46,605 nt of DNA from Methanosarcinales archaeon (lineage in GTDB: Archaea; Halobacteriota; Syntropharchaeia; Alkanophagales; Methanospirareceae). Numbering within the stretch: the stretch's first letter is position 1; the number at the start of each line of letters is the position of its first letter. Made by a program: the position numbers and the translations under genes. The notes below the pieces were generated by a model. That model was not told the DNA's origin, ran no database searches, and was given only the letters and a program-made list of their open reading frames with translations. The DNA is taken from NCBI GenBank assembly GCA_030611045.1, contig JAUWQN010000005.1:1-46605 (forward strand), written 5' to 3'. This document shows positions 1,846 to 20,034 of the stretch, in pieces.

Positions 1846-3333
1846 TTATGGGGGATTACAAATAGGACAAGGATCAGCTTTCCATTGTTCTTTAGCAAAT
1901 CTAACATTATTAACCCAGTAGTAATGACCATTTTTGCACCTGTTTCTAATAACCTTTTCCTCAAAATATTCTTCTTTAACAAAACTGCATGAAGGCTCAT
2001 GTATTTTGTTAGTGAATGCACTATCGGTTATAACTATATATCCTTCTTCATTCCTTTGTATTTTTCTAAATTCCTCCAATGTTTTAATTTCTTTCCAATT
2101 CACTTGCAGAAGGCTTGCCAATTCGTTCACGATCTCCTCGGCAATGATTCTTTTCTTATCGTTCACGTGCTTTACCTCCTCAGAGCCTTTTCTTAATATG
2201 TAAACGTCGTTCTCTTCCGTTCCCATTCCCCCCTTGCCTATGTCGTTGGCAACGACCATCTCAAGGTTATACTGCTCCATCTTCGCCCGTGCGCGTCTTA
2301 TCAGTTCATCCTCGGAAACGTTCGTCTCCGCTTTGAAGCCCACGATAACAAGCTCCGGGAATTCGTTCCTTGCTGCTTCTATTAATTTTCTGGTAGGCGT
2401 GAAATGCAGATGTAAATCCCCGCCAGAGGAGATTTTCACGTCTGCTGGATCAACCGTGAAATCCGCGATAGCGGCTGATGAAATAAGTACGTCATAGCCG
2501 TTTCGAAGCTCATTCATGCATGTATCAACCATTTCACGTGCAGTCTCCACCTTAAGCTCGTTTATTCCCATCATATTCAGCTCTTTGCTGTGCACGAGTG
2601 TGACCTCAGCACCCTGTTTATACGCTTCCTTTGCTATCTCAATCCCTGTTCGACCTGAGCTTCTGTTGGTTAATATCCGTATAGGATCTATCGGCTCGGC
2701 GGTGGGACCGCCTGTTACGAGAATGCGTTTCCCTGCAAGGTTCTTGGGTGAAAGTATATGTTCAGTTGTGAGAACGATCTCATCAATCGAAACGATTTTC
2801 GCAAGCCCTTCTTGGATTTTCGGCCCTAAGACTGTGACACCAAGCCGTCGTAACTTCTCAAGGTTCTCCACGATAACCGGACTATTATACATAGACTCGT
2901 GCATTGCGGGCACGATCATAATGGGAATGCCAGAGCCGAACGCAGTGGTTGTAAAAATCGTCACGGGTGTATCCGACACGCCCGTAGCTATTTTGTTGAG
3001 CGTATTTGCCGTGCACGGTGCGATGATAAAGATGTCTGCCGAGCCCTCCATACCGAGAAACTCTACATGCTCTATATCCCCCATCAATTTCGTTATCACT
3101 TCGTGCCCCGTGGCGTAATGAAGAGTATAAGGATGAATTATCTCGGTCGCCGCTTTGCTCATCACGCTATAGACATCTGCACCATGACGTATCAATTCGC
3201 GTGCGAGTTCAAACGCTCTTACTGCCGCGACAGAGCCCGTAACACCTAAAACGATCTTCCTACCCACTAACGAATGACTCTTTGTCCCTTTAATCCTCAG
3301 GGTTGGATGTGGCCCTCTTTCTCTTTCTGCCAT
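1846..3333 (-). CDS. coaBC: bifunctional phosphopantothenoylcysteine decarboxylase / phosphopantothenate-cysteine ligase with C-terminal extension
   Basis: The enzyme makes 4'-phosphopantetheine for coenzyme A. The N-terminal flavoprotein half (CoaC) shows VLGVTGSVAAV, the APCTANTLNK segment and the PAMHESMY motif. The C-terminal half (CoaB) shows GGPTAEPIDPIR, NRSSGRTG and the SSAAIADF segment. The start is set at 3333 because the HPT...KGTKS leader matches other archaeal Dfp proteins, whereas upstream codons run into the tRNA-Ala gene. The normal enzyme would end near residue 410. Here 85 more residues follow (coordinates about 1849-2103), with His445, Cys449, Cys466, His470 and a final CPIC (489-492) that look metal-binding. 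That tail is more AT-rich than the enzyme body. Core assignment is firm; the tail's role is unknown. Confidence 0.93.
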   Translation of the reverse strand: MAERERGPHPTLRIKGTKSHSLVGRKIVLGVTGSVAAVRAFELARELIRHGADVYSVMSKAATEIIHPYTLHYATGHEVITKLMGDIEHVEFLGMEGSADIFIIAPCTANTLNKIATGVSDTPVTIFTTTAFGSGIPIMIVPAMHESMYNSPVIVENLEKLRRLGVTVLGPKIQEGLAKIVSIDEIVLTTEHILSPKNLAGKRILVTGGPTAEPIDPIRILTNRSSGRTGIEIAKEAYKQGAEVTLVHSKELNMMGINELKVETAREMVDTCMNELRNGYDVLISSAAIADFTVDPADVKISSGGDLHLHFTPTRKLIEAARNEFPELVIVGFKAETNVSEDELIRRARAKMEQYNLEMVVANDIGKGGMGTEENDVYILRKGSEEVKHVNDKKRIIAEEIVNELASLLQVNWKEIKTLEEFRKIQRNEEGYIVITDSAFTNKIHEPSCSFVKEEYFEEKVIRNRCKNGHYYWVNNVRFAKEQWKADPCPICNPP

Positions 3334-3416: not shown

Positions 3417-3875
3417 TTACAGATACCTTGAGACATCCTCTATCATCCGCTCACAATAAAAGCACCTGAACCGAAGGGGGTTTTCGCTCACCGTGATGAA
3501 CTTGGATATAACGGGCTCTCGTTCCACATTGGATATGCAATTGGGATTCGCACAGCGTATAATGCCCTCTATTAACTCTGGAAGGTAAACCTTATGCTTT
3601 GCTATTACTTCCGAGTTCCGTATTATGTTTATCGTTGCATGTGGTGCAATCAGCGCGATTTTATCAACTTCTTCAGGCTTAAGCTCCCGGTCTTCCACTT
3701 TTACTATGTCCTTCCTGCCCCTCTGCTTGCTTCGCACGTTCAGCACCACGCTTAACGCTGCCTCCGTCCTCGCATGTATCCCCAGGATCTTCAGCACATT
3801 CAGCGCCTGCCCCGCTGCAATGTGGTCAATCACCGTTCCGTTCTTGATTGGCACTACTTTTAGCTCTTTCTTCAT
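3417..3875 (-). CDS. pyrI: aspartate carbamoyltransferase regulatory subunit
   Basis: PyrI binds nucleotide effectors and tunes the PyrB catalytic trimers in pyrimidine synthesis. The 152-residue protein has the N-terminal allosteric domain beginning [13 protein letters not shown]. The C-terminal zinc domain has all four ligands (Cys108, Cys113, Cys138, Cys141). Length is typical. A TATA-like sequence (TTTAAATTTATAG, reverse strand, near 3921-3935) lies about 50 bases upstream. The pyrB gene that usually precedes pyrI is not here: upstream lies a tRNA gene. Identification is firm. Confidence 0.96.
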
Positions 3876-4067
3876 TCTCCAGTCCCATCCTCAATAAATA
3901 CATTAAAGATAACACAAGCTATAAATTTAAATTTCTATCATATTCGGTTTTTTAGAACGTGGCAGTGGCTGGTTTAGACTTTCAAATCCATCAAATATGA
4001 CCTTTATTTGCCACTGTGAATGTGTGAATGAGTCGAGTTGCCTTCAAAAGGAAGTCAGTAGATGGAG
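3876..4067. promoter_or_regulatory. intergenic region with pyrI promoter
   Basis: This gap between pyrI and tRNA-Phe holds a reverse-strand TATA-like box (TTTAAATTTATAG, about 3921-3935), well placed to transcribe pyrI and possibly the tRNA-Ala and coaBC genes beyond it. No coding signal was seen in the remainder. Confidence 0.5.
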
Positions 4068-18562: not shown

Positions 18563-18724
18563 CTCTTTTTCTTCCTTTATTGTTTTGAATACTTTTTACC
18601 TCTCCTCTAACCCTGTGTTGCATAATTGCTAAGAGAGCGAGAATTGTCAATCTTGAGAAGGCATAGTGTTACTGTGGGGGACTGCTAAGAATAGCGGGTT
18701 ATAGAACGATGAACTTGGATGAGT

Positions 18725-19057
18725 TCACTTAACAGCAACTCCCACTGCACGCCGGATTAACAGACTTATCTCGTCAATCTCCTTTTCCATCGGACCTTTC
18801 TTGCCCGGTATTTCAAGGATAACAGGTGCTACGCCCTTTTTCTTCGCGTTTATCTCCCGTATCTTCTCTCTTGTCCGGGTCTCGGCGGCAAATCTTTCGT
18901 TTATGAGGATGATGGCAACTTCCTCTTTTGCCACCTTATCTAACACGCGGGCAATATCCTCTTCTTCCCCTGAGCTGTACTCATACACGTCCTTTATACC
19001 TGCAAGTCTAAAACCCGCAGCAGTGTCCGAGTCTCCAATTACCGCAACTGCGATCAT
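18725..19057 (-). CDS. atpF: A-type ATP synthase subunit F
   Basis: Subunit F is part of the central stalk of the archaeal membrane ATP synthase. The 110-residue protein begins MIAVAVIGDSDTAAGFRLAGI and has the IILINERFA segment and the ILEIPGKKGPM loop of the family. It overlaps the end of atpE by four bases, which implies translational coupling. In the usual archaeal order subunit C lies between E and F and the catalytic A and B genes follow F. Here F follows E directly and ends the operon. The remaining subunits must be encoded elsewhere. Confidence 0.95.
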   Translation of the reverse strand: MIAVAVIGDSDTAAGFRLAGIKDVYEYSSGEEEDIARVLDKVAKEEVAIILINERFAAETRTREKIREINAKKKGVAPVILEIPGKKGPMEKEIDEISLLIRRAVGVAVK

Positions 19058-19710
19058 GTTCCCGTGAATAGTGTTTTCATTATCTCTTCTCGTAAACTGG
19101 TAGATAATCGTGCCATTCGCTGCTCAAGCGTATTATTTACCTCTATTTCGCCATCTTTTCGCCTTACAATGACTCCTCCTGCAGACTTCATCCTTTCATC
19201 AGATAGTGATAACCGTACATTTACACCGAGATCGTTGCTTATTTCATCGGTTAAGTTTTTTAGCATTGCTTTGTCTATGTAGGGTGCAGCCGCATCTTCC
19301 TCGCTGAGTATTACTTCCACTTCCAAACCTGCGCTACTCCCAGCAGCTATACTAATCGTACTATCCTTTATCAAACCAGCCAAGATGTTCGGATACGAGT
19401 TCCCTTTGAATCCTTCGCTTTTAACGCTCTTTATTCGCTTCAGTGTTGCATCTAACGCCTTTCCTATCATCTCCTCCTCTACCGTCCATCTGAGCTTTCT
19501 CGCTTTTTGCCGTGCTGCTCTCACAATTCGTTCCTTCTCCTCACTACCTTTTCTTTCCTCAGCCTCAACAAACCGCTTCTTTTGTACTTCTATCTCTTTT
19601 ATCGCGTCCTCTAGTTCCTTCTTTGCATTCTCCTTTGCTTCGCGGATTACCTTCTCTTTTTCTTCGTTTGCTTCACTCTTTATCTTCTCCACTATCTCTT
19701 TCGCGCCCAT
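19054..19710 (-). CDS. atpE: A-type ATP synthase subunit E
   Basis: Subunit E forms the peripheral stalk with subunit H. The 218-residue protein has the expected long charged N-terminal helix (residues 1-80, rich in K, E and A) and a folded C-terminal domain with EVILSEEDAAAPYI and GGVIVRRKDGEIEVNNTLEQRM. A Shine-Dalgarno GAGGTGAG overlapping the atpH stop precedes the ATG. It is sandwiched tightly between atpH and atpF in one transcript. Confidence 0.95.
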   Translation of the reverse strand: MGAKEIVEKIKSEANEEKEKVIREAKENAKKELEDAIKEIEVQKKRFVEAEERKGSEEKERIVRAARQKARKLRWTVEEEMIGKALDATLKRIKSVKSEGFKGNSYPNILAGLIKDSTISIAAGSSAGLEVEVILSEEDAAAPYIDKAMLKNLTDEISNDLGVNVRLSLSDERMKSAGGVIVRRKDGEIEVNNTLEQRMARLSTSLREEIMKTLFTGT

Positions 19711-19716
19711 GCACTC

Positions 19717-20034
19717 TCACCTCACGCCTAAAATTTTCTCTAACGCGACGTTCACAGCACCCTCAAGATTCGCTTCCGCGGCTGATTTCAGCTTCTCCAC
19801 TTCAGTATCCGCTGTTTTCATTATCGCTACAGCTTCCTTCTTGCCTTCCTGCACATACTTAGCTGAAATTTCAGAAGCAATGCTCTTCTCATCTTCACGT
19901 GCCTTCTCTTTTAGCCTCTTTACTTCTTGCTCAGCCTCGTTCAGGATGTCCGCAACGCTTGCTTTCGCCTCTTCGAGTAGCTTTCGGCCGTCCTCTTCCC
20001 CCTCTCTTATAATCTTAAGTGCTTCTACTGCCAT
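19717..20034 (-). CDS. atpH: A-type ATP synthase subunit H
   Basis: Subunit H pairs with subunit E in the peripheral stalk. The 105-residue protein is almost entirely a heptad-patterned helix (EEGEEDGRKLLEEAKASVADIL-type composition) and ends LEKILGVR, as in other archaeal AtpH. The start is placed at 20034. A longer reading toward 20313 would cross the divergent mobB promoter and start, and its extra residues do not resemble this family. Genes for the membrane subunits I and K, which normally follow H, are absent between H and E. Confidence 0.92.
   Translation of the reverse strand: MAVEALKIIREGEEDGRKLLEEAKASVADILNEAEQEVKRLKEKAREDEKSIASEISAKYVQEGKKEAVAIMKTADTEVEKLKSAAEANLEGAVNVALEKILGVR

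Follow-up and report, generated by a model that had tools for sequence, protein, structure and literature searches.

Dispersal of A-type ATP synthase genes in ANME-1 archaea and a putative sodium-coupled membrane module of foreign origin in one branch

The H-E-F locus and the other ATP synthase genes of the genome

The window analysed in this study, a stretch of 46,605 nucleotides, is contig 74 (C74) of the metagenome-assembled genome G000, which comprises 1.54 Mb in 89 contigs and is an estimated 98.96% complete. Three genes of an A-type ATP synthase, atpH, atpE and atpF, lie together on its minus strand at 18725–20034, as a locus of their own without other atp genes (Table 1). The start of atpF overlaps the end of atpE by four bases, the gap between H and E is 6 bases, and none of I, K or C is found between the three genes at 18725–20034. 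The original prediction had described just such a tightly packed trio, and coordinates and Pfam matches agree with it. The family matches of subunits E and F (PF01991 and PF01990) exceed the Pfam cut-off; those of H fall short of the cut-offs of 28 bits for PF16999 and 48.5 bits for NCBIfam AhaH. The assignment of 19717–20034 as a putative atpH is drawn partly from this weak profile match, and partly from its position and from a length of 105 aa that is constant in most relatives.

Table 1. ATP synthase genes of G000 and the features that accompany them (contig 74 is the window)
Feature	Location	Strand	Description
atpH (putative), peripheral stalk subunit	C74, 19717..20034	-	105 aa, ATG at 20034; PF16999 27.5 bits and AhaH 28.8 bits, both below cut-off; length and place as in relatives
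atpE, peripheral stalk subunit	C74, 19054..19710	-	218 aa; PF01991 74 bits, E 1.3e-20
atpF, central stalk subunit	C74, 18725..19057	-	110 aa; PF01990 79 bits, E 3.3e-22
PAC2-family gene	C74, 17732..18562	+	PF09754 39.5 bits; convergent with atpF, 162 bases away
Promoter-like AT-rich stretch 5' of atpH	C74, 20035..20095	-	AAAGATTTTAAAAAGCTATCTATAATAAAG; kept in five genomes of the genus
mobB-like gene	C74, 20177..20626	+	PF03205 76.5 bits; divergent neighbour; adjoins H-E-F in many ANME-1 genomes
Sugar isomerase-like gene	C74, 20764..21561	+	labelled by sequence reading; near mobB/H-E-F in many ANME-1 genomes
A-B, adjacent	C65		after divergent CCA-adding enzyme gene; B runs off the contig end
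D, alone	C32 (L016; 5057–6422 for L6 and atpD)		directly behind ribosomal protein L6 (L6 labelled by sequence)
I-K-C	C3		followed by FrhB-like and FlpD-like genes
Second I-K and first bases of second C	end of C48		after Rnf C-D-G-E-A-B
atpZ-like gene and gene for 58-aa membrane protein	C48 (L015), ~2672–3048	-	PF09527, 27.4 bits (atpZ-like); between rnfB and atpI

Upstream of atpH, the AT-rich block is conserved in the window's genus amid an otherwise diverged intergenic region and is promoter-like; because it is kept in this way, separate expression control of H-E-F is plausible. At the other end, the operon had been predicted to stop against the PAC2 gene. The two genes do converge, but the junction is irrelevant to the split of the operon, and a PAC2 gene was not found beside atpF in the ANME-1 relatives read. 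At 18685–18724, just 3' of atpF, the likeness to the nearest relatives (G003 and G004) breaks off, and a recent rearrangement may therefore have taken place at the PAC2 junction; the G004 contig terminates just downstream of its own atpF. When named genomes were scanned with the E protein, the hits were two close loci (Methanosarcinales MAG) and a distant one from a bacterium.

The genome is that of a methane-cycling archaeon of ANME-1 (Methanophagales), as its McrA finds its best PDB match in the ANME-1 enzyme 3SQG (1016 bits, against 715 for the next). One report describes Rnf as absent from ANME-1 except for the subclade 'Ca. Methanoalium' (PMC9012536). Given the Rnf genes on C48, the genome therefore probably belongs near that subclade, which it resembles in being an ANME-1 genome with Rnf; linkage of Rnf to atpZ-like, I, K and C genes, and dispersal of atp genes, are not reported in the passages of that source consulted. 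The marks of 'Ca. Methanoalium' are an Rnf that lacks a cytochrome c subunit, an Mvh-type hydrogenase and the absence of multihaem cytochromes; the Rnf cluster seen on C48 is C-D-G-E-A-B.

A complete A-type set is encoded in G000, with A, B, C, D, I and K present beside H, E and F; it is not a single operon, and the genes are spread over C74, C65, C32, C3 and C48. The operon is thus split, as predicted, and the remaining subunits are elsewhere in the same genome. The further claim that the stalk subunits had been split off holds for H and E of the peripheral stalk and for F of the central stalk; it fails for D and C, which also belong to the central stalk and lie elsewhere. Head genes are single (one A and one B, together, and one D), I and K occur as cassette copies only, and no further copies of E, A, B, C, D, I or K were found in G000.

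Among 18 further ANME-1 genomes read, all but G014 show the same adjacency of D and L6 (17 of 18); the two sister-family genomes read do not. A hisD-like gene stands divergent to L6-atpD in most ANME-1 genomes, and L6 appears to lie away from its usual ribosomal operon in ANME-1. Inteins with Intein_splicing and LAGLIDADG domains were seen at the nucleotide-binding domain of AtpA in G029 (L197), G014 (L189) and G017 (L061) and, judged by frame length, also in G008, G024, G027 and G035; AtpB has one in G029 and, again by frame length, in G035. The window genome's own A and B contain none.

Distribution of the split among ANME-1 and its outgroups

Genes for E, C, D, I, A/B and K were sought in 59 genomes (that of the window plus 58 relatives), and the surroundings of E were inspected in 28 ANME-1 genomes besides the window's own, which represent 14 genera. 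The split is common to these relatives, a point that the original prediction had left for comparison: H-E-F stands without another adjoining ATPase gene in all 29 of the 29 ANME-1 genomes read, an A gene lying about 12 kb from H-E-F in G017. E, C, D, I, K and A are far apart in the low-contig assemblies G014 (5 contigs), G015 (20) and G032 (40), where with so few contigs the dispersal cannot be contig breakage.

The common archaeal order of A-type genes is H-I-K-E-C-F-A-B-D, and G041 of family f6 retains this canonical arrangement (L143). Within family f5, G042 has an H-E-F-A-B-D cluster, a separate K-C pair and a solitary I (L139), and G040 has E-A-B-D together with K-C elsewhere. The sister family f2 (L078, L079) carries H-E-F-A-B, its D, I and K-C being elsewhere. 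Within ANME-1, H-E-F and A-B are apart, and D, C, K and I are each found elsewhere in most genera. Comparison of the outgroups f6, f5 and f2 with ANME-1 gives a stepwise order as the most economical reading, and suggests that I, K and C came out of the operon before D, and that H-E-F then parted from A-B in ANME-1; this order of events is undated and follows from the distribution pattern. The ancestral archaeal operon would have broken into several transcription units in the ANME-1 lineage, H-E-F being one of them, and the subunits would be made at separate loci and then assembled into one enzyme.

Set against the canonical operon of G041, the window genome has the same subunits and keeps the relative order of H, E and F, but its genes occupy at least four loci, and I and C (and K, by its build) appear to be of other origin than the rest. 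A comparable scatter of A-type ATP synthase genes is known from the Crenarchaeota, among which Thermoproteus tenax has two atpI genes (PMC3189178). Small clusters across the genome and a duplicate atpI are common to both cases; the crenarchaeal one belongs to another phylum, whereas in ANME-1 the break-up is traceable stepwise within one class and the membrane module appears to have been replaced.

The I-K-C cassette: surroundings, ancestry and sodium ligands

Cassette-type I was found in eight genomes, of which six belong to the window's genus (G000, G002, G003, G004, G006 and G007) and two to a second genus (G010 and G031), and cassette K and C accompany it wherever contigs show them. Native K was not found in any cassette genome, and the window genome, for all its estimated completeness, contains no native I, K or C. 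The Rnf genes lie ahead of the cassette on C48 and adjoin it in G002 and G006, a linkage seen in these three genomes only; the gene upstream of the cassette in G003 is geranylgeranyl-reductase-like, not Rnf. In the interval that separates RnfB from I on C48, ARAGORN detected no tRNA gene. The pair formed there by the atpZ-like gene and the 58-aa membrane protein gene lies near the cassette in seven of the eight cassette genomes; atpZ (PF09527) normally accompanies F-type ATPases. In several relatives this pair is convergent toward the cassette, which means that I-K-C is inverted relative to it. An apparently non-coding, repeat-rich insertion of about 300 bp lies just upstream of atpI in G003 (C60; L080, ~3640–3930), and a similar repeat possibly also broke contig C3 of the window genome.

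Because the cassette lies at contig ends in G000, its copy number and exact order there are uncertain. The I-K copies on C3 and C48 share 92% DNA identity, C48 terminates inside the start of the second C gene, and a test for a tandem Rnf-I-K-C-I-K-C locus found no sequence shared between the ends of C48 and C3. The copies may represent two loci or two strain alleles; the presence of two C copies in G003 as well, one of them cut by a contig end, favours two loci. The I-K-C genes of C3 are 96% identical to those of G003, compared with 84–90% for other shared regions, pointing to recent exchange or gene conversion.

The ancestry of the cassette was addressed with quick trees, some with long branches, and the clades tested were specified once first scores were already in view. 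Native ANME-1 copies of I track the species order (f5,(f2,ANME-1)), and the cassette copies group with G048 and G041 (f6) outside that native clade; cassette C likewise falls outside native ANME-1 C. A single ANME-1 clade was rejected both for I (306 log-likelihood units worse, AU p = 1.6e-46, in a run without the sister family) and for C (77 units worse, AU p = 4e-5). In the trees of A, B and concatenated H-E-F, by contrast, the cassette genomes are nested in ANME-1, beside their cassette-free congeners G001 and G005. This conflict argues that the head and stalk genes are inherited vertically and that I and C are replacements. For K, whose sequence is too short to build a tree, a foreign origin is suggested by its travelling with I and C and by a build that differs from its native counterpart. 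The open-access literature yielded no report of atp gene dispersal in ANME-1, nor of an I-K-C replacement or Na+ swap.

The difference in build is pronounced. The native K of ANME-1 consists of one hairpin and carries the motif ALAEA(I/V)AIYG (L in one member); the positions that correspond to Enterococcus hirae T64, Q65 and Q110 are occupied by Ala, an aliphatic residue and others that are not ligands, and the Glu is the sole side-chain Na+ ligand kept. Cassette K has 159 aa and two PF00137 hairpins (four helices), its best solved match, over nearly its full length, is the Na+ ring of E. hirae NtpK (2bl2), and seven cassette K sequences retain every one of L61, T64, Q65, Y68, Q110 and E139. 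From this full ligand motif, and from what is established about it, cassette K is expected to bind Na+, each set of four helices forming one site, which would give fewer ions per ATP than an equal-sized ring of single hairpins. The likeness to the K ring of the E. hirae V-type Na+-ATPase thus takes in the four-helix proteolipid, its one site and the full ligand set; the difference is that NtpK is part of a complete V-type pump, whereas cassette K would be joined with an archaeal A1 head encoded at other loci.

A putative chimeric enzyme

Our model is built on where the genes lie, on how the family shares the arrangement, on the conflict between trees, on the ligand residues and on the single set of head genes, and these observations make it likely, in our judgement, that stepwise operon break-up, a foreign I-K-C and a native A1 with its stalks on a Na+-coupled Ao all belong to one account; to these observations the model adds a single chimeric complex, its Na+ specificity, its direction of turning and the separate expression of its parts. 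The native, scattered I, K and C would have been lost in the window's branch and replaced by the horizontally acquired cassette. As there is only one head gene set, one chimeric enzyme is the simplest working model, and most likely it combines native A1 and stalks with a foreign Na+-coupled Ao. The native A3B3 head, D/F rotor and E/H stalks would sit on foreign I and K, with E and H docking on I and D/F docking on foreign C, which would couple the D/F shaft to the ring. The enzyme would be driven by the Na+ pump Rnf encoded beside it, or be kept in balance with it; the sequence would allow both ATP synthesis powered by the Na+ that Rnf expels and outward Na+ pumping by the enzyme itself.

Alternative accounts concern either the assembly or the history and partners of the cassette. 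In a fragmented metagenome-assembled genome of 89 contigs, H-E-F might be an artefact from which I, K and C were deleted at the junctions; with the same order in the 28 other ANME-1 genomes of 14 genera, often with the mobB and isomerase neighbours, and with the missing subunit genes located elsewhere in the genome, this has a negligible probability. Misassembly of the trio was accordingly rejected, and the assembly deletion at the H/E or E/F junctions that the original prediction had asked to be excluded is ruled out. It is also very unlikely that the cassette contigs were mis-binned from another organism and that the native I, K and C simply went unassembled. The contigs end at the cassette, and the closeness of C3 I-K-C to G003, well above that of other shared regions, would suit such an error, but the cassette recurs in eight separate assemblies of two genera, none with a native K; moreover, the FrhB/FlpD-like genes of C3 show 94% identity to G004, a value typical of comparisons with that species, and C48 has a length of 29.7 kb, its Rnf genes agreeing with those of G002 at 92%.

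Retention of an ancient ANME-1 paralogue in this branch, without horizontal acquisition, could account for the occurrence of the cassette in two genera and for an inner branching that mixes both. It is an unlikely history, since the cassette falls with f6 and G048, apart from the native I clade, and none of the other ANME-1, f2 or f5 genomes searched contains it, so that many independent losses would be needed. Similarly improbable is a cassette that serves a second, separate V-type Na+ pump while the native enzyme retains a membrane part of its own. Such a pump would agree with the likeness of cassette K to the proteolipid NtpK, and some other archaea of the set (G043, G052 and G054) do have two ATPase operons; the window genome, at 98.96% completeness, has one member each of A, B, D and E and lacks native I, K and C.

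The subunits of an ATP synthase have to fit one another, which is why they are usually expected to stay together. The chimeric model, in which break-up of the operon is traceable in steps, would have it followed in one branch by replacement of the motor with a likely change of coupling ion. On balance, we lean towards the view that this ANME-1 branch swapped the whole ion-translocating half of its enzyme (subunits I, K and C) for a sodium-coupled set of foreign origin beside Rnf and kept its own head and stalks, a proton-to-sodium module swap perhaps enabled by the earlier break-up of the operon. Because the energy yields of ANME archaea are very small, which ion is used for coupling, and how many go into each ATP, matter directly for their livelihood and for why the Rnf-bearing branch differs from other ANME-1.
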